Source: an uncultured Saprospiraceae bacterium
Lineage (GTDB): Bacteria; Bacteroidota; Bacteroidia; Chitinophagales; Saprospiraceae
Direction: 5' to 3'
Length of the DNA: 64,000 bases
Assembly (NCBI GenBank): GCA_938045585.1
Contig: CALIAU010000015.1
Span: 62,001 to 126,000, forward strand
This document shows, in pieces, positions 23,335 through 64,000 of this stretch. Below the pieces are notes generated by a model that was not told the origin of the DNA, made no database searches, and saw only the letters and a program-made list of their open reading frames with translations. The translations under genes were made by a program, and so were the position numbers. Numbering within the stretch: position 1 is the first letter of the stretch; the number at the start of each line of letters is the position of its first letter.

Positions 23335-26300
23335 ATGAATTTAAATCACACCACACTCAGATTTACCCTAGTCAGTTTTGTTTTATTTTTTTGCATACAG
23401 CTTAATAGCCAACTCTTCCACGATGATCTCGTCTTAGAAGGCAATCTCACCTTTCAAGAAATTGTGGAAAAAACAGAAAAACACTTTGATGTCAAAACAC
23501 GTGTTAGAGGTCAAGGTTATAAACAATTCCAACGATGGAAATACTGGGCTGCTCGTAATCTAGATGAGAATGGAAAAGTCAGATCAGATGCAGATGCCTT
23601 ACGATCTTATAACAAATTCGCTGCAACTAGTAATACGCCTCAGCGAACCCTAGATGGTAATTTTATTGAGTTGGGTCCTTTAGCTGCTACGAATACTTCC
23701 ACTTGGTCTTCGGCCTTGGGACGTATCAGTGCGGTAGGATTGGATGTATCAGATGATGCACATATTATTGTTGGTGCCCCTACAGGAGGTATTTGGAAAA
23801 CATTAGACTATGGAGCCACTTGGACTCCTCTTTTTGATGAGATGCTTTTAATGGATGTATTTGGAATTGAAATATCCCATGCAGATCCAGACAGATATTG
23901 GGTTGGCCTAAGTGATGGTATATTAACATCGACTGATGGTGGAACTACCTGGACTGCCGTAGGTGGTGCAACGAGTGGTCTCTTTAATACAGTTGAAATG
24001 CATCCAATGGATGCTGATTTAGTATTTGCTGTTGAACAAGGAACTGGAAGAGTGCACAGATCTGAAGATGGTGGTGATAATTTTAGTATTGTCATGGATC
24101 ATAATTCATTTATGTATGATCTAGAATTTCATCCTAGCAATCCTGATATAATCTATGCCTCTGGTAATGATGCCATGTATATATCTACAGACACGGGTGC
24201 TAGCTTTAGTGAAATAACAACAGGGCCATGGAATGGCTTTGGCAATACACTTATGATGGCAGTAACGCCTGCTGCTGAAGATCGTATCTATGTTCTGGAA
24301 GAAACAGGAGGTGGATTTAATGCAGTGTATATGAGCGAAAATTTGGGATCTACTTGGACAACTCTTTCTGACAATACCTGTAACTGCAATAATATTATGG
24401 GCTATGACCAAAATGGCTCTGGTGGTCAAGGACCTAGAGATATGGATATCATTGTATCTCCTGTGAATCCCGACATCATACATGTTGCAGGTGTAGAAAC
24501 TTGGAGATCAACTAACCTTGGAGAATCGTTTATTAAAACGACTAACTGGAGTTCGCCTGGACAATCCAACTTTGTACATGCAGATGTGGATTTACTGATG
24601 TATGATAATGAAAGAATTATTGCAGGAACGGATGGAGGTATCTATGTATCAACGGATGATGCAACGAGTTGGACAGATATAACTCCTGGCATTGGTGTTC
24701 GCCAATTTTATCGTATTGGAGCCTCTGCAACAGAGGAAGATCAAGTCTCAGGTGGTTCTCAAGATAATGGAACAGGTATGCTAAAAGATGGTATTTGGTT
24801 TGACTTTATGGGTGCAGATGGCATGGAAACCTTTGTCGACTGGAGTAATCCGGATGTTGTCTATGGTACAGTACAATTTGGAGCCTTATATAAATCCGTA
24901 GACGGTGCGCAGAGCTTAGCAAATATTTCGACACCAGGAGGAGATGGAAATTGGGTAACTCCTTTTGAACAAGACCCTGTTGATGCAAACGTTATTTATA
25001 CAGCAAGAGAAGAATTATGGAAAAGTGAAAATGGGGGATCTACTTGGACTGCCTTAACAAATATAAATAATGGATCTAGAGTAGATGAATTTAAAGTCTC
25101 TCCTGTAGATAATAATTATTTGTTTCTAACAAGCGGCAATGTCATGCGTATTTCCACGGATGGAGGAAATACTTGGACGACATCTGATCTACCTGCGGGC
25201 GTAAATTATATCGCCGTGCATCCACTTAATCCTGAGCGCCTTGCCATTGCAGTTACAGGATCAGTAAATAAAATCTATGAAAGTTTTGATGCAGGAACAA
25301 CATGGAATAATATTACTGGAAATTATCCTGATTTTGTCAGTGCAGCCTGTGTCTTATATGATCAGGTAACAGGTGGCTTATTTGCTGGAGGAAATCCAGG
25401 TATTTATCATACTGAATCTACAGATGCAGTACAATGGGAAGATGTTTCTTTTAACTTACCTAAGGTCCGTGTCACTGAGCTTGAAATTAGAGATTTGACC
25501 ATGTATGTGGCTACCTATGGTCGAGGTCTGTGGAAGGTTGGTTTTGAATGTGACGAGAATGTAATTGGCAAAGCATGTAATGATTCTGATCCATGCACCA
25601 GTAATGATGTCTATGATGAGAATTGTAATTGTGCAGGTGTAATTGCAGATTCGGACGGAGATGGTGTTTGTGATGCTTTAGATGTTTGTGAAGGAGGGGA
25701 TGATAATGAGGACTGGGATCATGATGGAATACCTAATTTCTGTGATGGTTGTGCTACAGATTGTCCAGATTCTGATTGTGATGCCATCTGTGACGAGGAT
25801 GATATTTGCCCAGGTGGTGATGATGCTTTGGACTTTGATGGAGATGGCATACCAGATTACTGCGATGACTGTGACACACAGGTAGGTCAAGCTTGTGATG
25901 ATAATGATCCGTGTACTGTTTTAGATACGTTTGATGAAAACTGTAATTGTATTGGTGTATTTGCAGATGCCGATGCAGATGGTGTTTGTGACGAACTAGA
26001 CCTTTGCCCTAATGGGGATGATACCTTGGATGCGGATGATGATGGTTTGCCAGATGATTGTGACCATTGTCCAAATCCAGGAGATACGCCTTCTCTTTTC
26101 CTTGAATTTTTAGTGGATACATATCCTGGCGAAAGTACATGGGAAGTACGGAACACTCTTGACGAGGTAGTAACTTCTTCTTTTGGCAATTATGCTGGTG
26201 TAACGGATACCGTCTTTGAGGAAATGTGTGTGGATCCAGATTGCTATGAATTTATCGTGTATGACACGTATGGAGATGGCATCTGTTGTGGTTTTGGTCA

Positions 26301-26826
26301 AGGACACTATATACTAACAAATGCAGCAGGTGACACAATAGCACAAGGCGGTGAGTTTGATTTTATAGATGTAACAGAAATTTGCATTGAAGGAGATCTT
26401 GTAACAGATTTGACAATGAATTCACTCATGTTGCCAACAACTGCCAGTGGTCTAACTACTCTGTTTTTTGCTGTTACTGTTTTTGAAGTCGGTGCGTCTA
26501 GTTCAGAAGGTGATATAAGTATCATCTTACCTAAGGATGATAGATTACCGATTGATTGGGATCCTTCTGCGACCATAGTAGGTCCTTCTGAAGTTGATAA
26601 TGCTATGTGGACTTATGATGGTAGTGATGATTCATTTCACATATGGACCAATACAGGAAGTATACCTTCTAATGGATCATCTACAATTGGTTTTTCAGGA
26701 AATTTTGATCCGCAGGCAACCACAGGTTTAGTAAGTTTTACGGCTACAATACTTGAAAATAGTGGTGGCGAACAAAATGGAACAAATAATATTGATGTCG
26801 AAACGCTCATTTACTTTAGTAATTAG
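23335..26826 (+). CDS. Giant secreted beta-propeller protein with TSP3-like repeats and novel C-terminal domain
   Basis: About 1163 residues from the Met at 23335, which begins a signal peptide ending near L-N-S-Q. Residues about 110-740 are repeated BNR/VPS10-like blades with 'S-x-D-G-G-x-T-W' Asp-box motifs ('STDGGTTWTAVG', 'SENGGSTWTALT', 'STDGGNTWTT'), as in sortilin-type or sialidase-like propellers. Residues about 745-925 hold Cys/Asp-rich calcium-binding modules ('DSDPCTSNDVYDENCNC', 'DSDGDGVCDALDVC'). A Cys-containing domain (about 925-1025, 'YDTYGDGICCGFGQG') and a tail of about 140 residues follow. No type A T9SS tail is present; the tail is shared with two other proteins here. Catalysis is unproven; it is probably an adhesin or surface hydrolase. 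Confidence 0.85.
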   Translation: MNLNHTTLRFTLVSFVLFFCIQLNSQLFHDDLVLEGNLTFQEIVEKTEKHFDVKTRVRGQGYKQFQRWKYWAARNLDENGKVRSDADALRSYNKFAATSNTPQRTLDGNFIELGPLAATNTSTWSSALGRISAVGLDVSDDAHIIVGAPTGGIWKTLDYGATWTPLFDEMLLMDVFGIEISHADPDRYWVGLSDGILTSTDGGTTWTAVGGATSGLFNTVEMHPMDADLVFAVEQGTGRVHRSEDGGDNFSIVMDHNSFMYDLEFHPSNPDIIYASGNDAMYISTDTGASFSEITTGPWNGFGNTLMMAVTPAAEDRIYVLEETGGGFNAVYMSENLGSTWTTLSDNTCNCNNIMGYDQNGSGGQGPRDMDIIVSPVNPDIIHVAGVETWRSTNLGESFIKTTNWSSPGQSNFVHADVDLLMYDNERIIAGTDGGIYVSTDDATSWTDITPGIGVRQFYRIGASATEEDQVSGGSQDNGTGMLKDGIWFDFMGADGMETFVDWSNPDVVYGTVQFGALYKSVDGAQSLANISTPGGDGNWVTPFEQDPVDANVIYTAREELWKSENGGSTWTALTNINNGSRVDEFKVSPVDNNYLFLTSGNVMRISTDGGNTWTTSDLPAGVNYIAVHPLNPERLAIAVTGSVNKIYESFDAGTTWNNITGNYPDFVSAACVLYDQVTGGLFAGGNPGIYHTESTDAVQWEDVSFNLPKVRVTELEIRDLTMYVATYGRGLWKVGFECDENVIGKACNDSDPCTSNDVYDENCNCAGVIADSDGDGVCDALDVCEGGDDNEDWDHDGIPNFCDGCATDCPDSDCDAICDEDDICPGGDDALDFDGDGIPDYCDDCDTQVGQACDDNDPCTVLDTFDENCNCIGVFADADADGVCDELDLCPNGDDTLDADDDGLPDDCDHCPNPGDTPSLFLEFLVDTYPGESTWEVRNTLDEVVTSSFGNYAGVTDTVFEEMCVDPDCYEFIVYDTYGDGICCGFGQGHYILTNAAGDTIAQGGEFDFIDVTEICIEGDLVTDLTMNSLMLPTTASGLTTLFFAVTVFEVGASSSEGDISIILPKDDRLPIDWDPSATIVGPSEVDNAMWTYDGSDDSFHIWTNTGSIPSNGSSTIGFSGNFDPQATTGLVSFTATILENSGGEQNGTNNIDVETLIYFSN

Positions 26827-36645: not shown

Positions 36646-38175
36646 ATGCGAATAAGTTTATGCCTTAGTTTTTTACTTTACGCAATTTTAGGATTTAGTC
36701 AAATCTCGGAATCAGATTTACTTCAAAAAGAAAAGAATAGATTAGAAAATTTAAAGAATGTCTTACTAGATGCTGATGGCTCGGAATTTAATAAGAGTAC
36801 AGCCCTTGAACTAAGAAGCATGGTGGATGCAGATGACGATGGTATGGATGATGACTGGGAACTTGCGAATGGCCTAGACCCTACGGATAACAGAGATGCA
36901 TGGACAGATAAAGATGGGGATGCAATAAAAAACATGTTTGAATTTCAATTATCTACAGATCCCAACTCCCCTTTAGATCCTGTAACAACAAATTATAATC
37001 CTGATACGGATGATTTCAACTCTTTAATTCAATCAGGTTTAGGTAGTATTCTAGTTCTCAAAATGTCCGAAGGAGTATATACTTCTGAAAATACAACATC
37101 TTTTGCAGAAACAGATTCTCGCATTATGATTCAAGGAGGATGGAATTCGGATTTTACTGAACATAATCCTGATAAATATATAACACGATTTGTTGGTGAT
37201 GGTACGGATGAAATTTTATATCTGAGCTCCCTGACGGAAGCGGAGAATGATCTTGAAACTTATATTCTCATTTTAGAAGGCTTTGAAATAGAACAGGGAG
37301 GCAGCACCTTTGGGAATATTAACTTTATTACCTGGGGTGTAGAAAACGCTGTTTTTGTCGTCTATGATGTAATTTCATCAAATAGCGCAACCCATGGTAT
37401 GACCTTTCATCATTGGAGTGGTTCACATGGAAAAGTATTTCTTGTCAATTCAGAATTTAGTGGTAACGCTTCCCATGGCTTTAGAAATCAAACTACCTCT
37501 GAATCCACAGGAGACTGGAAGTTTTATAATATCACACTATCTAGAAACGGGTCAGATGGTAATCCAGGCTTCAGGAGTTTTACTATAAATTCAGAAGTAA
37601 ATCTTGATGCTACCAATATCATTGCAATTAATAACCTTGGGAGCTCAAATTTAAACCTGGGTGATACATATACTGGCACGATTAGACATTCAAATTTTGT
37701 ATTCAGTGATATTTCAGATACTGAAATGACACATGAAAATTCCATTCAACAAAATCCGCAATTTATAAACCCTCCAGGAGGTGATTACACTCTAGGCAAT
37801 ACTTCACCTTGTATAGATAGTGGTGTGGATATAGGACTTCCCTTTGCTGGTTCCGCCCCTGATATGGGAGCCCATGAGTTAGGTGATATTATGAGTTTCA
37901 ATAATAACATCGATCTAGCTGGTATTAATTTCACTCTTGTTTCTAATCTTATCGAACAGGGTCAGGACATAGAAGTTGTATGCGATTTTGATCAGAAGGT
38001 TCGCTCAATACAGCTCCAAATCTATGATGCTCAGGGCAGGCAGGTAAAATCTTCTGCACTCGATAAACGAACGAAGAGGCAAAATATATCTAACAGCTTC
38101 TTACCAGGGACTTACTTGATGCAGGTATATGTGAATGGATCACTACTCTCTGCGCAACAATTTATAATTTTTTAG
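36646..38175 (+). CDS. Secreted T9SS cargo protein, beta-helix-like, with type A tail
   Basis: 509 residues. Signal peptide 'MRISLCLSFLLYAILGFSQ'. Residues about 60-105 hold Asp-rich TSP3-like calcium sites ('DADDDGMDDDWELANGLDPTD', 'DKDGDAIKNMFEFQL'). Residues about 110-410 resemble a right-handed beta-helix ('SHGMTFHHWSGSHGKVFLVN', 'SGNASHGFRNQTTSES'), as in polysaccharide-degrading or surface proteins. Residues about 430-509 are a type A T9SS sorting tail ('QLQIYDAQGRQVKSS', 'FLPGTYLMQVYVNG'), so PorT and partners should export it. Enzyme activity, if any, is unknown. A TAAGTTTG element lies at 36581. Confidence 0.83.
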   Translation: MRISLCLSFLLYAILGFSQISESDLLQKEKNRLENLKNVLLDADGSEFNKSTALELRSMVDADDDGMDDDWELANGLDPTDNRDAWTDKDGDAIKNMFEFQLSTDPNSPLDPVTTNYNPDTDDFNSLIQSGLGSILVLKMSEGVYTSENTTSFAETDSRIMIQGGWNSDFTEHNPDKYITRFVGDGTDEILYLSSLTEAENDLETYILILEGFEIEQGGSTFGNINFITWGVENAVFVVYDVISSNSATHGMTFHHWSGSHGKVFLVNSEFSGNASHGFRNQTTSESTGDWKFYNITLSRNGSDGNPGFRSFTINSEVNLDATNIIAINNLGSSNLNLGDTYTGTIRHSNFVFSDISDTEMTHENSIQQNPQFINPPGGDYTLGNTSPCIDSGVDIGLPFAGSAPDMGAHELGDIMSFNNNIDLAGINFTLVSNLIEQGQDIEVVCDFDQKVRSIQLQIYDAQGRQVKSSALDKRTKRQNISNSFLPGTYLMQVYVNGSLLSAQQFIIF

Positions 38176-41975: not shown

Positions 41976-44900
41976 TTAGTTTTCTGACTGATATAGGAGT
42001 GTTTCTGCATCTGCATTATTCAATCCATTCAACTCCCCTCCTGATCCAGATAATATCGTCATAGTATAGGTCGTGGTTCCAGAAGTACCCTGTGGATCAT
42101 AGCTGGCCTCAAAACCAAAAGAGGAATTATCCAATGCATCAATACTCACATTGCTTGTCCAGATATGGAAGGAACTATTTGAATCATCATAGGTCCAAGA
42201 AGGATTATCTATAGTAAATGGACCTATTTGTGTTAGGCTAGGATCATAGGTAAAACTTAACCTAGCATCTCTACCCATTATTACAGTCACAGTGCCATTT
42301 GTTTGTTGATTGTCTAGCTCTTGTACACGAACAGTCCAAGCCATATCAGTAATACCGTTCGACGTTGTAGGTAAGAAGGTCATGATAGCAGATAGATCTG
42401 GTACATTATCAGAAGGAAGTATAAGTGTTTGTACTGTATCACATTCTATACTTCCATCCTCCGTTGTTACACAGAGCACATTATCGGTATATACTGGCTG
42501 CAAGATCGTTACCTCATCTATGTACCATCCTTCCTCTGCTACAAAGGTATCGGATGCAAACAAAAAGCGAATATTCACTGTTTCTCCTGCATACGAATCG
42601 AGATCTACACGCGTTTCAATATAGCCTCCACTATTTCCAGAGAAAGCGGGATTACCAGCTAAGGGGTCTACGCCATTTCCTTGTATCGTGCTATTGTATC
42701 CATTCTCAATCATAAGAGATCCCAAATCTACCCAAGTTGTTCCGTCCGTTGAAATCTGAAACAAACCTCCATCCCAGTTTGCTTCTGTATTGTAGTTGTG
42801 CCATACAGAAAGAACATCTCCGGCATTTATTGTAACTGGAGTAAGTTCTAAGAAGTGAATATTTTCTTCTGTTATATTAGGAATAAACCAAGCAAAGCTT
42901 CCACCGTTGGGGTTGGCTGTTCCCAGTGTCCAAGGTTCCGAACCTGTTTCAGTAACGACTGTATAATTTCCATCTCCGGATTCATTATCATCGCTAAAAT
43001 TAATTACTGAAGAATCTCCACTTCCATCTAAACGTACATCATAATTACATTCATATAGCTCACTTGGATTGAGCGTTCCGATATTATCATTTAATATATT
43101 TCCTGTAAAAGTTCCACAGTTATTATTGTCAATTAGTACTGTAGTCGGAGCTAGTGTGTCCATTAGAGTAACATCATTGAGTGTTCCAAAACTTAGGACA
43201 GAAAGATCGTAGGTGATGGTATCTCCTAGTTTTGCAGAAACAGGTCCATTCTTTTCAACCTGAAATCCTGACAAACAAAGTGCTGGTAAATCAAAATTCT
43301 CTGTACCATCTGTTACACTACCCGAAGATCCCTGATCCGCTCCTTCTCCTAATCCTCTTCCTGCAAAGGCTTCCCATATTATACATTGGTTTGCACCGCC
43401 ATTATTTATCATATCTGCCTCCAATATAGCATCTCGACCATCTACAAAGCCCGGACCGCAGGGCTGTAACTTTAAGCCATCAATCACCAACTGTAAGGCA
43501 ATATTATTTCCACCAGTCCCATTGTATATATCTGGATCAAAACCATGTTCTTCTATTAAACCCCAGGTCATATCCCATAACATTGCACACCATACAGAAC
43601 CTACTCCATGGGGTACGGAAACATTATCTACATCTGCATAGGTATGCGGATTTACATTCATATCTGTACTGTAGGGAAAGGCTCTAATACCATTTCCAGT
43701 TGGAGTCTGTCCTAGCACATAGGTTCCAATTCCTCGTAGGTCTGAGCCCTGATCCCCTTCTTCTATTGTCATCATGAGACCAAAGTAATCACTCCAACCC
43801 TCACCCATTTGTTCGCTCCCATTTAAGCAGCCTGAAGAAGCAGGTCCACCCGTGAGACGAATAGAAATACCATGGCCGTACTCATGTACGATTATTCCAT
43901 TATCTAAATCACTATCGCGATTAGGTGGAGAGGAAACGTCAAGGTCGAAACTTACATTCACATTGTTCGCCAATTCAGTTTTTATAATATTACAATCAGC
44001 CAGAGTTATCATAATAGAAGGAATAGTAATGTTATTATTTGTACCTCCCATATTAAAAGGACCACCCCCTACATTATTACATACGACAACCGCAATTGCC
44101 CCTTCGTCTTGTGCTGCTATTACCTTGTCTACAAAATCACAGTTACCTCTATCAATAAGGGCTATGTTTCCATCTATTTCTGCGCCATTTGTAATAGGAT
44201 CACAGGCTTCGTTAGGTTCTACATACACAAGATCTCCTGTGTACTGTCCTGAGTCTGCACCGAAATTTGCAACTGCAGCAATGTAGTTACCTGCGATATT
44301 TGAAGGACTATTGACCTCCAAAAAGAGATTCGATCCGCTCTGCGTCCATTCAAACATTTGCATACGTGGATTTGAACCGTCTGGAGGTGTGCCGAAATTT
44401 GCATTATTTGTTCCAGATCCATCTTGCGCATCAGCATTTACAAAATCACTCCCTGCACCACCATTCCCATAATTGTTTTCTTGAAAATTTCCACTTACTT
44501 CATCGAATCCATATTGATACATCACATCATGAATGATGTTGTTCCAGAAAAATAAATTCGTGATCGCCACATCTTCATAATCTATAGGGTCATCGTTTAG
44601 ATCAATTGGAAAATCAAAATCTAAACTTGCACCTCCATCTGGCGCATATCCAAATTGGTTGTCTGCATTTCTATCCTCACTTGCCCAGACATTATTCCCT
44701 CTCGTATCTGTATAATCAGCACCATCTGAACCATCATCATCATGCCATCCAAAGGGAGAGGCATTTGGTGCTAGGGTCCAAGGAGCAGATTCTATTGTTC
44801 TACCTCCGTGTGTTGGTGACTCTATGGGCATTGCGTATACATTGTATGTGTTTGCTAAGCTAGGAGCATGTGTTGCGTGTTCTTTGCAATTATGTACTTC

Positions 44901-45599
44901 CGTATGCTTTTCAGCAAAATGATTCGCACGTACTGGTCTATCTAAACTTACTTCATGCGAACATTCAATCGTCCAAGATAATTTAGAGACAAATTCTCCA
45001 GTTCTTGCATCAATTCGCGCTACCCAGAAAAATCCATCATCTTTCTTTACGAAGACAATTTCCCAGCAGAGTTTTAACTCGCTTTGTTTTCCAAATTGAT
45101 AAACTAATCGAGCTGTAATATCTTCACTCGATAGGCTACTAGCTCTCAGAATATGATTTTGCTCTGCGGAGTTTCCATCCTTAACTATACTTTCTAATCC
45201 ATCAAATGCCATTTCAAAATGTTCAGCAACTGCAGCACAACTTTGCTCTAAAGAAATACTTGGCTCTGTTAGAACCTGACTAAATTTCTGAGGGTTGATA
45301 AATGAGGAATGTGCAGAGAGTACCGTTTGGTTTTCCCGCACGTTGACATTGGCAACTGCATCTATAACTTCTAAACCATTATACAATTGTTTAAAATAGA
45401 CATGATGCACACCATTGTGTTTGGTCTGATATATATCCTTGGTAAAAACGGAAGCTCCATTAAATTCTGATCCAAATTTGGAACTGTGTTTATCCAAGAT
45501 GGCAGACTTTGCAATGTTTTCTATCTGCGCTAACTGAGCTGATGTTTGAATTTGGAATGCGCATATTCCAAAGAAGAATAGTAGAATAGTGTTTTTCAA
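41976..45599 (-). CDS. M36 (fungalysin-type) metalloprotease, secreted, with novel C-terminal domain
   Basis: 1207 residues. Signal peptide ends near T-S-A-Q (about 21). A fungalysin/thermolysin propeptide (about 45-190) is followed by the M36 peptidase: 'NLFFWNNIIHDVMYQYGFD', a PA-domain insert at about 470-525 ('ALIDRGNCDFVDKVIAAQDEGAIAV'), then 'VHEYGHGISIRLTGGPASSGC' at about 568, where H-E-Y-G-H binds zinc, and 'QMGEGWSDYFGLM' with the third ligand Glu. A DUF11-like repeat (about 783-833), a MAM/immune-inhibitor-like domain (about 863-1036) and the shared tail (about 1070-1207) follow. It is probably a secreted collagen/gelatin-type protease. It has no type A tail. Confidence 0.92.
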   Translation of the reverse strand: MKNTILLFFFGICAFQIQTSAQLAQIENIAKSAILDKHSSKFGSEFNGASVFTKDIYQTKHNGVHHVYFKQLYNGLEVIDAVANVNVRENQTVLSAHSSFINPQKFSQVLTEPSISLEQSCAAVAEHFEMAFDGLESIVKDGNSAEQNHILRASSLSSEDITARLVYQFGKQSELKLCWEIVFVKKDDGFFWVARIDARTGEFVSKLSWTIECSHEVSLDRPVRANHFAEKHTEVHNCKEHATHAPSLANTYNVYAMPIESPTHGGRTIESAPWTLAPNASPFGWHDDDGSDGADYTDTRGNNVWASEDRNADNQFGYAPDGGASLDFDFPIDLNDDPIDYEDVAITNLFFWNNIIHDVMYQYGFDEVSGNFQENNYGNGGAGSDFVNADAQDGSGTNNANFGTPPDGSNPRMQMFEWTQSGSNLFLEVNSPSNIAGNYIAAVANFGADSGQYTGDLVYVEPNEACDPITNGAEIDGNIALIDRGNCDFVDKVIAAQDEGAIAVVVCNNVGGGPFNMGGTNNNITIPSIMITLADCNIIKTELANNVNVSFDLDVSSPPNRDSDLDNGIIVHEYGHGISIRLTGGPASSGCLNGSEQMGEGWSDYFGLMMTIEEGDQGSDLRGIGTYVLGQTPTGNGIRAFPYSTDMNVNPHTYADVDNVSVPHGVGSVWCAMLWDMTWGLIEEHGFDPDIYNGTGGNNIALQLVIDGLKLQPCGPGFVDGRDAILEADMINNGGANQCIIWEAFAGRGLGEGADQGSSGSVTDGTENFDLPALCLSGFQVEKNGPVSAKLGDTITYDLSVLSFGTLNDVTLMDTLAPTTVLIDNNNCGTFTGNILNDNIGTLNPSELYECNYDVRLDGSGDSSVINFSDDNESGDGNYTVVTETGSEPWTLGTANPNGGSFAWFIPNITEENIHFLELTPVTINAGDVLSVWHNYNTEANWDGGLFQISTDGTTWVDLGSLMIENGYNSTIQGNGVDPLAGNPAFSGNSGGYIETRVDLDSYAGETVNIRFLFASDTFVAEEGWYIDEVTILQPVYTDNVLCVTTEDGSIECDTVQTLILPSDNVPDLSAIMTFLPTTSNGITDMAWTVRVQELDNQQTNGTVTVIMGRDARLSFTYDPSLTQIGPFTIDNPSWTYDDSNSSFHIWTSNVSIDALDNSSFGFEASYDPQGTSGTTTYTMTILSGSGGELNGLNNADAETLLYQSEN

Positions 45600-52416: not shown

Positions 52417-54870
52417 CTACTTGTTGAAAAACTCAAACTTAGAAGTATAGGCATTCTCCTTGGTTACTACCTTAAGTAGATAGAGTCCAGGATTCTGCTC
52501 AACGTGCAGTTGGTAATACTGTGCGTCAATATTACGTACCTGTTGTAGGAGAACACCATTCAGGTTATATATTTCTATATGCTGAATATTCTCCTGATTA
52601 AGCAACTCAATATTCAATTCTGAGCTGGTTGGGTTCGGATATAAGAAGGTTGGATTCTTAGTCTCTTTCAGCTCTTCCTTCTCATCGTCTTTGCTTCTAA
52701 TTGGTACTTGAATACTTTGATCTTTCAGTTTTACTCTACGACCATTTGCATCTGATGCATAGACGTCGGTCAGATCAATACTTATTAATCGCTCTGCTCC
52801 CTCTTCCAGTCTAAATCCTTCTACCTCTTCTTCTACGATAAAGGAGAGAACAGCAACAATACCCTGTCCACTAGAATTTAATCCGGTCGTCTTGGTGATC
52901 GCCGTTTCAATTCTACCATCCATCGGTACTATTTGCAGATCAACAGTTGGATCATTATGATTCAACCAAGAAGATTTCAAATAGTGCATTTGCATACTAG
53001 AAGAGTCTGCAAGATCAGCGCTTACGTTAAGAGCAAAAGAAAAGGAATGTACATCAATAGCAGGGAATTCATCATTACCCGCAATGATATTTATATGAAG
53101 TACTTCGCCAGAGTCAACTGACTCTTCTTGTGTTTCTAACTCAATGATATAATCATCCGTAATAAGAGACTCATACTGTGAGTAAGATCTCATATTACCA
53201 TAGTTCTCTAAGATCGCGTCAATATCTTCCGCTGTTACTACACCATCTCCATTTGAATCAGAATGTATAGCATCATCTGAAGTATCCCCTGATTGACCAT
53301 ACCAGATACCGTGGTCGAGGTTCTCTTTTGTCGGTACGAGTTTACCTATATCAGCACCAATTTTTTGCAAATCGGCCAGACTCACCTTTCCGTCATTATT
53401 TGCGTCCCCTTCCCAGATACAATCATCTACACAAGGACAGACACCTGAAGAATCTTGAGAAGCCGTTACTGTAACAACTGTTCTTACCTGATGACAGGCA
53501 TTCGCTGCAGTACAATAGAAGACATCAAAGGCATCTTCTCCAACAAAACCTGGATTAGGCAAATAAACTATTTTGTTTAGTCCAGAGATAGTGTAACAAC
53601 TATCTTCTTCCGTTTCGCCCTCATCTAAAAGATTCAAGCTACCGTTTGAAGGGCCACTCAGTACCATCCAATCTGTTCCTTCTATAGGTACTTTGTAATC
53701 AATTACAAAAGGCGTATTTGCTAGACCTTCAAACTCGTAGGTATACCAGTTAAATGGTTGTTGGTCGTTTACTTCAATAGAAATATCCGCAGTATAATCT
53801 GTAAGACCATCTGAGGCTGTATAAAAGAAATTTTGTACACCATAGTAGCCTTCTGGTGGCAGGTAGGTGAACTCACCATCTCCTATGTATTCTAACTCTT
53901 CAGAGTAGTCAATTATAGTAAATTCTTTCAAGTCATTATCGTAGACATTGAAGCTAATCTCTGTATTTTTTGAAGTATAAAACTCATCATCCCGAATGAA
54001 TGAATTGTTATACGGTGTGTCATAGACTTTAACATATACTGTATAGTTAAAGCCAGCAGTATTGACAAACTGTAAAGAATCTAGTCCGCTAAAATTACTT
54101 TCTGGATTGTAGGTATAGGCATATTCATTGACTTGATCTATTGCACCACTTGTTGTGCCATAGTTATCATTCAGTGTATAACCGATGCCTGGAAGCGTAA
54201 AAGAAACGGAGGATTTATTTGTTGTGAATAATTGTTTGTCCTGATCAGCATCGATAACTGTGTTTGGAATTGCCACAACAACACTATTGCTGTGTGTTCC
54301 AAAGGTATCCATCACCAAATACTGTGTGTACATTTTGTCCTCCGAACTGAGAGCAAACAAATCAATCTCATCCACATTTGTCACTGCATCAACATCCTGC
54401 TCTAGAACAGTTCCTAATAACTCTAAGTCACCCGCAGTACTGTTGTCATTCGTTAGAACATCTACACTTAGTTCTGAATCAATCAAAACATAGTCACGTG
54501 TAGCTCCAACGATGGAAGCAACCGTGTTTAATTCTAATACGGTGTATTGTGGTTTAGGGATAAAGGAAATAGGTCCAGGTACATAGTACTCTACAGTGAA
54601 TGTTGCGTTCCCTGGCTGCATGCCTCCTGTGAAGATAAATTCGTACATCTCATCCCCTAGGAAGGTAGGTGCACTAATATCTCCCCAATCACTTGTTTGA
54701 TCAACAAATAAAAGTGTTGGACTGATAGTAGACTCTATGATAATGGATTCTTGGCCGCTAAAAGGAACCGTCACAGAAATGTGATCTGGATTCTCTTGTG
54801 CTACTAGACTTATAGGCAGACATATAAGCACAAAAAACAAACAATTAAGTAAGTTCTTTAAACGACTCAT
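52417..54870 (-). CDS. Secreted T9SS cargo protein with Ig-like and dockerin-like repeats, type A tail
   Basis: 817 residues. A signal peptide is present. About residues 130-500 hold repeated Ig/cadherin-like (VCBS-like, Big_9-like) domains with 'NDNSTAGDLELLGTVLE', 'LNDNYGTTSGAIDQV' and 'YFYTASDGLTDYTADISIEV'-type features. A calcium-binding dockerin-like segment follows (about 515-575): 'DANNDGKVSLADLQKIGADIG' and 'DSNGDGVVTAEDIDAILENYG'. A cohesin-like domain lies at about 590-720. The last 80 residues are the type A T9SS tail ('FLYPNPTSSELNIELLN', 'IEIYNLNGVLLQQV', 'GLYLLKVVTKENA'). It is a cell-surface adhesin or scaffold candidate. Confidence 0.88.
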   Translation of the reverse strand: MSRLKNLLNCLFFVLICLPISLVAQENPDHISVTVPFSGQESIIIESTISPTLLFVDQTSDWGDISAPTFLGDEMYEFIFTGGMQPGNATFTVEYYVPGPISFIPKPQYTVLELNTVASIVGATRDYVLIDSELSVDVLTNDNSTAGDLELLGTVLEQDVDAVTNVDEIDLFALSSEDKMYTQYLVMDTFGTHSNSVVVAIPNTVIDADQDKQLFTTNKSSVSFTLPGIGYTLNDNYGTTSGAIDQVNEYAYTYNPESNFSGLDSLQFVNTAGFNYTVYVKVYDTPYNNSFIRDDEFYTSKNTEISFNVYDNDLKEFTIIDYSEELEYIGDGEFTYLPPEGYYGVQNFFYTASDGLTDYTADISIEVNDQQPFNWYTYEFEGLANTPFVIDYKVPIEGTDWMVLSGPSNGSLNLLDEGETEEDSCYTISGLNKIVYLPNPGFVGEDAFDVFYCTAANACHQVRTVVTVTASQDSSGVCPCVDDCIWEGDANNDGKVSLADLQKIGADIGKLVPTKENLDHGIWYGQSGDTSDDAIHSDSNGDGVVTAEDIDAILENYGNMRSYSQYESLITDDYIIELETQEESVDSGEVLHINIIAGNDEFPAIDVHSFSFALNVSADLADSSSMQMHYLKSSWLNHNDPTVDLQIVPMDGRIETAITKTTGLNSSGQGIVAVLSFIVEEEVEGFRLEEGAERLISIDLTDVYASDANGRRVKLKDQSIQVPIRSKDDEKEELKETKNPTFLYPNPTSSELNIELLNQENIQHIEIYNLNGVLLQQVRNIDAQYYQLHVEQNPGLYLLKVVTKENAYTSKFEFFNK

Positions 54871-58989: not shown

Positions 58990-61900
58990 CTAGTGTACAT
59001 AATTAATCACTATCGTAGCAATATTATTTAGTAGATCTGTTTCCGCCTCATTCATTTTAAAATGCACGGTACTCGTTAAAGTTCCATCTTGTGCTCCTGG
59101 ATCTATCGACAGGTTATAACCAAATTTATATTCTGTCATCGTATCAATACCACTGTCCCTAGTCCATATGTAATAATTTGGATTTGAATTATCAAAGGTC
59201 CACATCGCATTTTCAACTGCTTCTCCATTTAGCGTCGTCAAACTTGGGTCATATGTAATCTCCAATTTCGGATCCTTGTTCACATATACTGTGAGTGGAT
59301 CCGCAGAGTTTTGCCCTGCGTTCTGTTGAATGGATAGCACTATAGGATTTGATTCAATATTGTTCGTATTTAATACGCTCGAAGAGGCAGAAATCTCAAA
59401 ATCTGACTCACAAGGTTCTGATTCGAAGGTTACATTTAGTTTAGGTCGGCTTGACTCTGTAGCAAATTCATCTGAGGCAAAAGCCACATCGTTCCCTCCT
59501 GGTTGATGTACAAGAATTAAAGAAAAAGGTCCAGTATTCGTTATTCCTGTCAGTGTTGTAGAATACGTTGTGCCTAGAGTAAATGAACCTGACATTGTTC
59601 CTACTAAAAGATCTTGACCGGGAGCATTGCCAGTTGTCAGCGTTGTCTCTGTCCAATCTACGTCGTCACTTTTATAAATTTCTATTGTTCCGTTTCCTGC
59701 ATCTGATTCTGTCGTAAGCTCTAGTGTCAAATCCACAATAGGACTTGTAATTGCACTTAGATCAAATTTTAAATAACCTAATCGATTACCATTTTCTACA
59801 CGTAAAATATTCACATTGAATCTTGTAGTCCCTTGCAGGTAGGCATCATCAATCGCAGTCAAAGTACTACTGCCACTTGTTTCTACTTCTACGCCTTCAC
59901 AATTACAAGCACTTGTGTAGATATCATTAATAGTACAGGCATTTCCATCATCACAGGCTGTTCCTATTATGCTATCATCTTCTCCTGGGCACTGATCAAA
60001 GGCATCGCAAACTCCATCTCCATCTGCATCTGCAAGTACACCTGCACAATCACAGTCTGTTGTGTATACATCATTTTCTGTGCATGGGTCTCCATCGTCA
60101 CAGGCTGTTCCTATTAGATTATCATCAAGGTCCTGGCACATATCGAGGTCATTACAAACGCCATCGTTGTCAGAATCTAAACAATCAGGATCATCCTCTC
60201 CTGGAGATCCACAGATATTATCTGCAGATAACTCCCATAAGGAAGCATCATTTTGGGATCCAACAGGATTATTTTCAGTAGGTACTAAAGAGTGTCCTAC
60301 TCCATCTGCTTCTATAGGCCAAGGCAAGACATCATCATATTCTACTTTGATAAGTGTGTCATTTGCTAAACTCACAAATTCAATCAATTCACCTCCATTA
60401 CTTAAGGCGCCTCCATATTCTCCGAAAACAACAATATCAGGGCATTTAGTGGCAAGTGCTGTAGCATTACTCGCTATAACTAAAAAGCTTTGCGGCGGCA
60501 TAGTTGTACCAAATGGAAAAGTAAAATCTACACCACTCGTTATCTCCAATAAACTAATATCGATAGTCTCTGTGGTACTTGTATTTTTTATTTCTAAGAA
60601 CTCTAAATCTCCTCCAGGGACAGCACCAAAATCTCCAGGATTGTACATGATTTCTGTAAGCTTAAGCCAACTTAAATCTGAATTCTCTACAGGGATTCCT
60701 TGACATATACAATTATCTGTATACACATCGTTTACCGTATTGGGATCTCCATCATCACAAAATGTTCCTAATAGATTATCATCAAAGTCTGGGCAAATAT
60801 CTTGGTCATCACAAATGCCATCACTATCAGAATCTAAACAATCAGGATCATCTTCTCCTGGAGAACCGCACACATTATCTTCAGATATTCTCCATAAGGA
60901 GGCATCATTTTGTGAACCAACAGGATTAGGTACAGTAGGCACTAAAGAGTGTCCAACTCCATCCGCTTCAATAGGCCAAGGTAAGACATCATCATATTCT
61001 ACTTTGATAAGCGTGTCATTTGCTACACTCACAAATTCAATCAATTCACCTCCATTACTTAGGGCTCCTACATATTCTCCGAAAACAAGAATATCAGGAC
61101 ATTTTGCAGTTAGAGCTACAGCATTACTCGCTATAACAAGAAAGCTTTGCGGTGCCATCGTTGTACCAAATGGAAAGGTAAAGTCTACACCATCCGTTAT
61201 CTGCAGCATACTAATATCGATAGTCTCTGTGGTACTTGTATTTTTTATTTCTAAAAACTCTAGTTCTTCACTAGGTATACTGCCTAAATCTCCCGGGTTG
61301 TACATTATCTCTGTAAGCTTAAGCCAACTCAAATCTGAATTTTCTGCAGGTATTCCTTGACATATGCAATTATCTGTATACACATCGTTTACCGTATTGG
61401 GATCTCCATCATCACAAAATGTTCCTAATAGGTTATCATCAAAGTCTGGGCAAATATCTTGGTCATCGCAAATGCCATCGTCGTCAGAATCTAAACAATC
61501 TGGATCATCTTCTCCTGGAGAACCACACACGTTATCGATAGATAACCTCCATAAGGAAGCATCATTTTGGGATCCTACAGGATTCGTTTCCGTTGGTACT
61601 AAAGAATATCCACCACCATCTGCTTCAATTGGCCATGGTAAAACATCATCATATTCTACTGTGATAAGCGTATCATTTGCTAAGCTTACAAATTCAATCA
61701 CTTCACCTCCATTACTTAAGGCACCTACGTATTCTCCAAAAACAAGAACATCTGGGCATTTCGCAGTAAGTGCTGCAGCATTATTTGCTATTACTAAAAA
61801 GCTTTGAGGAGCCATAGTTGTACCAAATGGAAAAGTAAAACCTACACCATCTGTTATCTGCAGCATACTAATATCCAGAGTCTGCGTTGTACTTGTATTT

Positions 61901-64000
61901 TTTATTTCTAAGAACTCTAAATCTCCTCCCGGAACAGTACCAAAGTCTCCAGGATTATACATGATTTCAGTCAGCTTAAGCCAGCTTAAATCTGAATTTT
62001 CTACCGGGATTCCTTGACACATGCAATTCGTTGTATACACATCGTTCACTGTGTTAGGATCTCCATCATCACAAAATGTTCCTAATAGGGTATCATCAAA
62101 ATCTGGGCATATATCTAATTCATCACAAACACTATCTAGATCAGAATCTGCACACGATTCATCTTCTCCTGGAGAGCCACAAACGTTATCAAGAGATAGG
62201 GTCCATAAGGCAGCATTATTTTGAGGTCCAACAGGATTTGTTTCTGTTGGGACTAAAGAGTATCCCACTCCATCCGCTTCTATAGGCCAGGGGGAAACAT
62301 CATCGTATTCGACACGTATAATTGTATCTCCTTGGAAGGTTGCAAAGTCTATCTTTTCTCCGCCGTTGCTTAAGGCTCCTTCATATTCACCGAAAACAAG
62401 AACATCTGGACATTTTGCAGTAAGCTCTGCAGCATTGCTCGCTATTACTAAAAAGCTTTGAGGCTCCATAAGCGTACCAACAGGGAATGTAAATACTACG
62501 CCATCCGTTATCTGTAATCCACTTATATCTAGTGTCTCTGTTGTACTTGTATTTTTTATTTCCAAAAACTCCAATTCTACACCGGATACAGTTCCAAAAT
62601 CTCCTGGGTTGTACATAATTTCCGTAAGCTTTATCGCGCTTAAATCGGCGTTCAGAAATAGATTTAAACAGTGTAAGGCACTCCATTCATTCCCCTGTTT
62701 TACCCTAGCTAATAGGTTAGTAGAAGCATTGAAGACGATGTCTTCATTTGAATACAGAATGGCATCTGGATTAATATCACCTCCAGACATACGCGGATCT
62801 ACCCCGTTCGTCGTGTAGTAGATGTCTCCATTGCTATTCGGATTATCTAACTCTAGTGTATACCCACCATCCACAGCAAGCTCTTGGACTTCAACAGCTA
62901 TATTATTATTTAAAAAAAGTGGCGGGTCAATGTTTGGGTAATACCCTTCATCTCTCATTGCGACTATTAATTGATCCACATTGCCATCCATTAGGCCATC
63001 CAGCCTATCTACCTCAGCCTGCCAATGATCATCTCTCGTTCTGGTAACACCATCATCTATACCATCTCCCCATCTAGCGGATTCTGCCACAATGGCATTT
63101 CCAATGAAATCATTTATTGCACTCCATCTATCTCTAGAGTTGTCATCCGTCATTGCACCATCATTAAAGCACAACTTATATGCTCTATCTGCAAATGACA
63201 TCATAAAATCATCATTGACTTTTGATTTATTAAATACACGTGCAGATGCACTCCCTCCATTATCATTACTTTCAAAAGCAGGATGCACCCAAGCTCCATT
63301 GTTCGAATTATTTGTTACATCCCATGACCATTCGCAATCCCAACCGAAATACATAAAGGGTCCAGTTGGATTATTTCTATTACCTCCCCACCAATTGTTA
63401 TGCGGCCAATCTTGTACTCCCGTCATCCAAGAAATCAATAGGTAATCAGCTAGTTTTTCAACATCTAAATATTCTTGAAGCTCCTCATAATTATTGTCTT
63501 GAGACATATCCTTATCTAATAAAGGGCCAATCATGTAGTCATAACGATCGTCAACTCCTCCTTGATCACCACCGTGACTTACAGCAAACCAATCTTCTTT
63601 TTCTCCTCCTAGATAGGTAGAGGTAAATGCTTCATCGGGGCGTTCAACAGGATTGTATAATCCCCAGTACAAACCGTTTACATATAAGTGCACAAAGGTA
63701 CCATGGGATCCTATGCCGGAAGAGGCAATTTGTGACTGCCTATACCATTCATCCCGTGTATATGCTGTTCTATCTGGATTCCAATTTCTTGTCCAGGCCC
63801 TATTGTTTCCTGCTCTGAGTACAATCCTATCAAACTTATTTTCTGCACTTTCTGCACCAACTGGCGCATTTCTAAATATATCTGAATCCCAATTCGTTGC
63901 GCCATAAATTGCTTTAAAAGACAAACGCATAGACCTCTTTAATCGGTCGTGACTGTGTGGCTCTATCCCCCCATCTTCTTGTTCATTCTTATCAGGTGCA
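58990..64000 (-). CDS. Giant secreted CotH-kinase protein with four lamin-tail units and shared C-terminal domain (right-truncated)
   Basis: The frame is open to the window edge, so the N-terminus and signal peptide are missing; the Met at 63930 is internal ('HSHDRLKRSMRLSFKAIYG' continues upstream). About 1-320 (from that Met): CotH kinase domain ('RIVLRAGNNRAWTRNWN', 'FVHLYVNGLYWGLYNPVERPDEAF', 'YFGWDCEWSWD'). About 335-420: a chitobiase-C-like beta domain. Then four lamin-tail units of about 219 residues, each with 'LTEIMYNPGD', 'PWPIEADG', 'CGSPGED' and Cys/Asp-rich 'GTFCDDGDPNTVNDVY'. A carbohydrate-binding-like domain ('DDAYLQGTTRFNVNILRVENG') and the shared tail end it. Family known: CotH phosphorylates proteins on the spore coat; here the substrate is unknown. 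Confidence 0.9.
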   Translation of the reverse strand, partial: APDKNEQEDGGIEPHSHDRLKRSMRLSFKAIYGATNWDSDIFRNAPVGAESAENKFDRIVLRAGNNRAWTRNWNPDRTAYTRDEWYRQSQIASSGIGSHGTFVHLYVNGLYWGLYNPVERPDEAFTSTYLGGEKEDWFAVSHGGDQGGVDDRYDYMIGPLLDKDMSQDNNYEELQEYLDVEKLADYLLISWMTGVQDWPHNNWWGGNRNNPTGPFMYFGWDCEWSWDVTNNSNNGAWVHPAFESNDNGGSASARVFNKSKVNDDFMMSFADRAYKLCFNDGAMTDDNSRDRWSAINDFIGNAIVAESARWGDGIDDGVTRTRDDHWQAEVDRLDGLMDGNVDQLIVAMRDEGYYPNIDPPLFLNNNIAVEVQELAVDGGYTLELDNPNSNGDIYYTTNGVDPRMSGGDINPDAILYSNEDIVFNASTNLLARVKQGNEWSALHCLNLFLNADLSAIKLTEIMYNPGDFGTVSGVELEFLEIKNTSTTETLDISGLQITDGVVFTFPVGTLMEPQSFLVIASNAAELTAKCPDVLVFGEYEGALSNGGEKIDFATFQGDTIIRVEYDDVSPWPIEADGVGYSLVPTETNPVGPQNNAALWTLSLDNVCGSPGEDESCADSDLDSVCDELDICPDFDDTLLGTFCDDGDPNTVNDVYTTNCMCQGIPVENSDLSWLKLTEIMYNPGDFGTVPGGDLEFLEIKNTSTTQTLDISMLQITDGVGFTFPFGTTMAPQSFLVIANNAAALTAKCPDVLVFGEYVGALSNGGEVIEFVSLANDTLITVEYDDVLPWPIEADGGGYSLVPTETNPVGSQNDASLWRLSIDNVCGSPGEDDPDCLDSDDDGICDDQDICPDFDDNLLGTFCDDGDPNTVNDVYTDNCICQGIPAENSDLSWLKLTEIMYNPGDLGSIPSEELEFLEIKNTSTTETIDISMLQITDGVDFTFPFGTTMAPQSFLVIASNAVALTAKCPDILVFGEYVGALSNGGELIEFVSVANDTLIKVEYDDVLPWPIEADGVGHSLVPTVPNPVGSQNDASLWRISEDNVCGSPGEDDPDCLDSDSDGICDDQDICPDFDDNLLGTFCDDGDPNTVNDVYTDNCICQGIPVENSDLSWLKLTEIMYNPGDFGAVPGGDLEFLEIKNTSTTETIDISLLEITSGVDFTFPFGTTMPPQSFLVIASNATALATKCPDIVVFGEYGGALSNGGELIEFVSLANDTLIKVEYDDVLPWPIEADGVGHSLVPTENNPVGSQNDASLWELSADNICGSPGEDDPDCLDSDNDGVCNDLDMCQDLDDNLIGTACDDGDPCTENDVYTTDCDCAGVLADADGDGVCDAFDQCPGEDDSIIGTACDDGNACTINDIYTSACNCEGVEVETSGSSTLTAIDDAYLQGTTRFNVNILRVENGNRLGYLKFDLSAITSPIVDLTLELTTESDAGNGTIEIYKSDDVDWTETTLTTGNAPGQDLLVGTMSGSFTLGTTYSTTLTGITNTGPFSLILVHQPGGNDVAFASDEFATESSRPKLNVTFESEPCESDFEISASSSVLNTNNIESNPIVLSIQQNAGQNSADPLTVYVNKDPKLEITYDPSLTTLNGEAVENAMWTFDNSNPNYYIWTRDSGIDTMTEYKFGYNLSIDPGAQDGTLTSTVHFKMNEAETDLLNNIATIVINYVH
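60025..62650 (-). repeat. Tandem array of four near-identical lamin-tail coding units
   Basis: Four direct repeats inside the CotH gene. The same codon block (for M-Y-N-P-G) recurs at 62612, 61958, 61301 and 60644, giving periods of 654, 657 and 657 bp (218, 219 and 219 codons, exact multiples of three). Units 2 to 4 are closest to one another; unit 1 differs more. Each unit holds one lamin-tail domain followed by a calcium-binding Cys/Asp module. The similarity points to recent duplication or gene conversion. Confidence 0.9.

Follow-up and report, generated by a model that had tools for sequence, protein, structure and literature searches.

Three unrelated secreted proteins encoded in the window (the whole stretch of DNA analysed, 64,000 nucleotides from an uncultured Saprospiraceae bacterium) end in the same domain of about 140 residues, which lies outside the Pfam and NCBIfam families searched. 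This tail is probably a C-terminal sorting domain for T9SS cargo, and we infer export by the T9SS from the sequences. The strongest functional evidence is that the tail shares its terminal slot with the type A domain on homologous passengers.

The first of the three genes (23335-26826, plus strand) encodes a VPS10-like propeller protein with a signal peptide, judged by eye, and a Sortilin-Vps10 match of 3.2e-30; its tail, at 26401-26823 on the same strand, covers residues 1029-1169 of a 1169-residue frame and scores 233 bits. The second (41976-45599, minus strand) is an M36 metallopeptidase gene scoring 917 bits against NF038113, from position 8 to position 779 of that 869-position model, and its tail (41979-42407, minus strand; 237 bits) occupies residues 1079-1219 of a 1221-residue frame. 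The third (58990-64000, minus strand) encodes a protein with CotH (1.9e-12), LTD (3.3e-43) and CBM96 (4e-10) matches, the LTD being present in four stretches. Its reading frame extends past the window edge, where a signal-peptide-like start was seen with the N-terminus taken from the neighbouring stretch, and its tail (58993-59412, minus strand; 214 bits) comprises residues 1530-1668 of a 1669-residue frame. An earlier, sequence-only reading had placed the tails correctly to within about 20 bases. They are 140-143 residues long, have 27 invariant columns in their alignment, and the second and third tails are 46% and 26% identical to the first. With the M36 tail as query against the whole genome, the tails of the propeller and CotH proteins were recovered at E = 2.6e-36 and E = 1.8e-18, respectively; chance likeness is thereby excluded, and the common domain which that reading had aligned by eye is a homologous one. 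Its further observation that the passengers are unrelated was borne out by Pfam, which assigns them Sortilin-Vps10, Peptidase_M36 with PA and MAM, and CotH with LTD and CBM96, respectively. The tails are also not type A domains, as had been stated: when the three proteins were searched at full length, neither Pfam nor NCBIfam gave a match in the tail region. Two other secreted proteins in the window do carry type A domains, one clearly (52417-54870, minus strand; TIGR04183, 42.0 bits) and one marginally (36646-38175, plus strand; 24.5 bits, cut-off 23).

The genome (4.31 Mb in 44 contigs, 98% complete) yielded 25 matches to the M36 tail at E up to 0.01. One of these, C8:115239, has a frame of 44 residues which lies at the end of a contig, and was left out; in each of the 24 ORFs that were examined, 0-4 residues separate the end of the tail from the stop codon. 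A further copy, on C21, lies behind a PKD domain. The 24 copies are partly dependent: the CotH protein and the tail protein C25:47406 have 239 passenger residues in common at 72% identity, which indicates that part of the passenger was duplicated along with the tail. Over 22 tails an N, a W and a pair NN are invariant, and the nearly invariant positions include the S, G and E of an end block GSGGE-x-N-x-x-NN. The pair was located in 51 tails from this and other genomes, and in 48 of them it is followed by 9-14 residues before the stop codon; a 52nd tail is without it.

The N-terminus could be read in 21 tail genes, the other three of the 24 being cut by contig ends. Judged by eye, 20 begin with a Sec signal peptide and one with a lipoprotein-like signal. 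The sole tail protein with the latter (L017:997-1560) has a degenerate tail in a frame of 188 residues. Among the passengers are peptidases of the M36, M43 and M14 families as well as VPS10-like propellers and a lipase-like hydrolase; there are also pectate-lyase-like proteins and beta-helix proteins, and both SdrD_B repeats and CBM96 occur. Two proteins, L063:1804-2382 from an uncultured Saprospiraceae MAG and C22:35018-35548 (L168) from this genome, are scarcely larger than a signal peptide plus a tail. The second lies in a cluster at C22:34198-39585 in which three small tail genes (201, 272 and 176 aa) alternate with three small type A genes (352, 351 and 265 aa) on one strand, with gaps of 14-275 bp. 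A type A gene stands directly downstream on the same strand in 9 of the 24 tail genes and is absent from that position in 15, and the nine include tandem clusters; an obligate downstream type A partner was therefore rejected as a rule.

An ordinary Ig-like module would be expected often to be internal, and the PKD domain of the same genome was used as a control. Among 30 of its 50 matches, located in 11 frames, none was terminal; none lay within 90 residues of the stop codon, the nearest being 98 residues away. The frames which bear PKD domains end in type A, in type B or, in three cases, in the tail. With none of the 30 PKD matches terminal and the tail terminal in all 24 ORFs of this genome, the tail behaves as sorting domains do and unlike the modules which precede them.

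Searches of Pfam and NCBIfam with 22 tails at E up to 10 returned stray weak matches only, so that no known domain with another function was found above cut-off. The NCBIfam library includes the models for type A and type C, and that for type B also has an NCBIfam accession; at the same threshold none of the 22 tails matched TIGR04183 (type A), TIGR04131 (type B) or NF033708 (type C), and the 49-position model NF045639 (GCX_COOH) gave no match to the 22 tails searched. All 26 type B matches in the genome are located away from tails. In a profile comparison type A against type B gave 56%, compared to 0.2% for the tail against type A and 0.2-0.5% for the tail against either type. The best match among PDB sequences had an E of 0.058, plasmid records contained no tail match, and among the open-access papers listed no title or abstract opening dealt with such a further signal-class domain.

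An AlphaFold2 model of the tail, built from four sequences, has nine strands with a mean pLDDT of 71 and a pTM of 0.67. Among solved folds it comes closest to integrin domains (Z 11.4, rmsd 3.6, 128 residues, 9% identity); next to these stands the receptor-binding domain of A2M (Z 10.4, 8% identity). The tail is thus predicted with moderate confidence to be an Ig-like beta-sandwich, a fold which alone reveals no function. No T9SS domain was among the 50 fold matches listed in each of two structure searches, a result which excludes nothing.

The relation to type A was examined in the ORFs of 20 stretches plus the window, using a type A profile made from 38 terminal domains of this genome. There were 45 type A ORFs and 16 tail ORFs, and none had both. 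Comparison of the passengers of tail and type A proteins within this set gave five in-genome pairs. The clearest consists of the neighbours C7:27873 (tail) and C7:30077 (type A), which are 49% identical over 499 aa, ie over the entire M43-CUB passenger; beyond it the former has the tail and the latter about 110 residues followed by a type A domain. Over 812 aa the propeller protein of the window is 25% identical to C35:6099 (E = 5e-44), which has a type A domain, and the other tail and type A pairs are C2:232650 and C2:238721 (44% over 162), C25:47406 and C25:50838 (48% over 371), and C9:44739 and C9:47795 (37% over 118). A type A homologue of the window CotH protein was not seen in this partial set. 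With the M36 family added to the five pairs as a further passenger family common to the tail and the known signal, the tail stands at the terminus where related proteins carry type A, and it is probably another export or surface-sorting tag.

The M36 protein of the window matches a model, NF038113, which is named for T9SS-dependent M36 peptidases. A second M36 match in the genome, C2:117734 (707 bits), shares a frame of 1170 residues with a type A match. M36 matches occur in 72 of 80 family genomes, and 30 homologue loci, from 30 of those 72 genomes, were examined: 26 end in type A (including L107, a weak match 37 residues from the stop codon, and L117, whose frame is cut by the end of the locus), three in GCX_COOH and one in the tail. 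The three GCX_COOH ends (NF045639; L109, L116 and L130) come from three other genomes and represent a third domain type in the slot. In the M36 tree the tail copy falls in a group of five (support 98/96) whose other members end in GCX_COOH (three) or type A (one), and the row nearest to the tail copy is a GCX_COOH end. The tree shows exchange at the slot, with its direction left unspecified. Because GCX_COOH is also held there in 3 of 30 M36 proteins, occupation of the slot is by itself no proof of export.

That similar tails occur in other Saprospiraceae had been supposed in the sequence-only reading, and a 22-row profile found them in at least 21 of 398 family genomes and at least 7 of 395 phylum genomes, 25 genomes together. 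The tail is rare in the family; 10-13 candidates per genome were scored, so the per-genome counts are minimum values and rare members may have escaped. At least 10 tails each were found in G473, another genome of the same genus, and in G399, from another genus. Widening the profile (19 rows, in part seeded from the same genomes) gave matches in at least 4 of 295 class genomes, each already found. Among 33 loci from other genomes, which cover part of the G473 and G399 matches, the tail ends within 9 residues of the stop codon in 31. One of the other two, L055, scored below the 15-bit limit; L027, the single case of a tail inside a protein, is a partial match of 56 positions (23.9 bits) lying 154 residues from the stop codon. 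Four more distant relatives (L026, L090, L092 and L094) were seen in G249, a single-contig genome from another family of the class, the terminal position having been read in L026. Comparison with G473 orthologues, which gave a result for two of three pairs (the L062 pair gave none), showed 65% identity in the tail against 76% in the passenger for M36, and 58% against 77% for M43.

The genome has SprA and at least 150 type A matches (150 of 282 candidates were scored), together with 26 type B matches (23 above cut-off), 10 PorP-family matches (9 above cut-off) and 5 PorV-family matches (3 above cut-off), the last of which do not indicate which protein would serve the tail. SprA was present in all 25 tail-bearing genomes, ie no tail was found in a genome without it, but the background is 303 of 395 phylum genomes, and the seven of seven tail-bearing genomes in the phylum draw are not significant (p = 0.36). 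The co-occurrence was accordingly rejected as proof of a T9SS link. No PorP-family gene, among the 10 matches in the genome, lies within 14 kb of any tail gene, and a linkage to PorP/SprF in the style of type B was likewise rejected.

The sequence-only reading had proposed either an alternative T9SS cargo signal or a surface-retention domain. The terminal slot, the signal peptides and the exchange with type A support that proposal as a whole; export and retention are inseparable by sequence, and dependence on the T9SS is our deduction. In the reading we favour, the tail would function in the manner of the type A, B and C domains. The passenger would enter the periplasm by means of its N-terminal signal peptide, and at the outer membrane the SprA translocon and a shuttle would recognise the tail, folded as the modelled Ig-like sandwich; for the shuttle, a member of the PorV family is more likely than a gene-linked PorP/SprF protein. 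The tail would thus bring the passenger to the cell surface. The cleavage site of T9SS signals is placed by PMC11969387 in a flexible linker preceding the domain. In several proteins the tail begins only about 10 residues after the last passenger domain (a CUB domain in L009 and a PKD domain on C12), and for that reason it may perhaps remain uncleaved, as is probable for type B domains. The corresponding spacing in M36 is about 30-45 residues, which makes the argument against cleavage weak. There is about an even chance that the tail represents a fourth, independently evolved class of T9SS signal, a 'type D' of about 140 residues, Ig-like, without detectable relation to types A, B or C, present on about 25 proteins and exchanged with type A.

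The best fold matches (integrin domains and the receptor-binding domain of A2M) are modules that serve in binding or adhesion, and they suggest the main alternative, ie that the tail attaches to a glycan, an outer-membrane protein or a co-secreted partner and in this way docks or retains the protein at the surface, export being directed by something else. The nine type A genes directly downstream of tail genes and the three alternating pairs on C22 fit such a partnership, as do the two proteins which are almost nothing but signal peptide and tail. However, 15 of the 24 tail genes are without such a neighbour, and T9SS cargo genes are generally clustered in this genome. A domain that served for binding alone would have no need of a terminal position, and its carrier would require an export signal, of which none was seen. 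We regard this explanation as possible but distinctly less probable than a sorting role.

It is less probable again that the tail is a structural cap with no part in sorting, an Ig-like module of the CARDB/DUF11 type on proteins which are periplasmic or exported by other means. One of five divergent relatives does have a CARDB match, below threshold (E 0.0014, 19.2 bits against a cut-off of 22.7), one of the 22 tails has a weak match to DUF11 (E 0.039), and L027 provides one partial internal match. Terminal position in 24 of 24 ORFs, exchange with type A on shared passengers and the absence of terminal domains among the 30 PKD controls all argue against a cap. Shared descent with type A, the tail being a highly divergent and elongated form of it, seems very improbable: type A domains are Ig-like sandwiches too, according to PMC11285876, but the tail is about twice as long (about 140 residues against a 72-position model), the profile comparison gave 0.2% where type A and type B gave 56%, and TIGR04183 matched none of the 22 tails at E up to 10.

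Prediction of T9SS cargo depends almost solely on the C-terminal domain. If the tail is a sorting signal, the secretomes of these bacteria are undercounted, here by about 25 proteins, among them M36, M43 and M14 peptidases, a lipase-like hydrolase, and pectate-lyase-like and adhesin-like proteins. The pair C7:27873 and C7:30077, with the same passenger and different C-terminal parts, would then be a natural test case for one translocon accepting unrelated signals. Should the tail be a type D signal, either the T9SS or a shuttle reads shape rather than sequence family, or there exists a second destination defined by a shuttle.

Among known systems, the CARDB and DUF11 Ig-like modules resemble the tail in a 'PDLxP' start and in faint matches below cut-offs, and CARDB also ends in E-x-N-x-x-NN; those modules, however, are usually internal or repeated, whereas the tail is terminal. 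GCX_COOH, a 3-coathanger stack domain, is like the tail in replacing type A on M36 (3 of 30), but its model does not match the tails. Type C (NF033708, ChiA) would be alike as a further class of terminal signal, for which the tail is a candidate, and differs in that its model found none of the tails. Types A, B and C are the T9SS signal types described in PMC10202324, where type B is probably uncleaved and dependent on PorP/SprF; type B cargo is steered to its destination by shuttles, according to PMC12618676. The tail resembles type B (TIGR04131) in being terminal on large surface proteins and possibly uncleaved, and differs in having no detectable sequence relation to it and no PorP-family gene within 14 kb. 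Compared to type A (TIGR04183) the tail again has no detectable sequence relation and is longer (about 140 against about 72 residues), but both are terminal, both stand on secreted multidomain proteins with homologous passengers, and both appear Ig-like, the tail by modelling and type A as described in PMC11285876.
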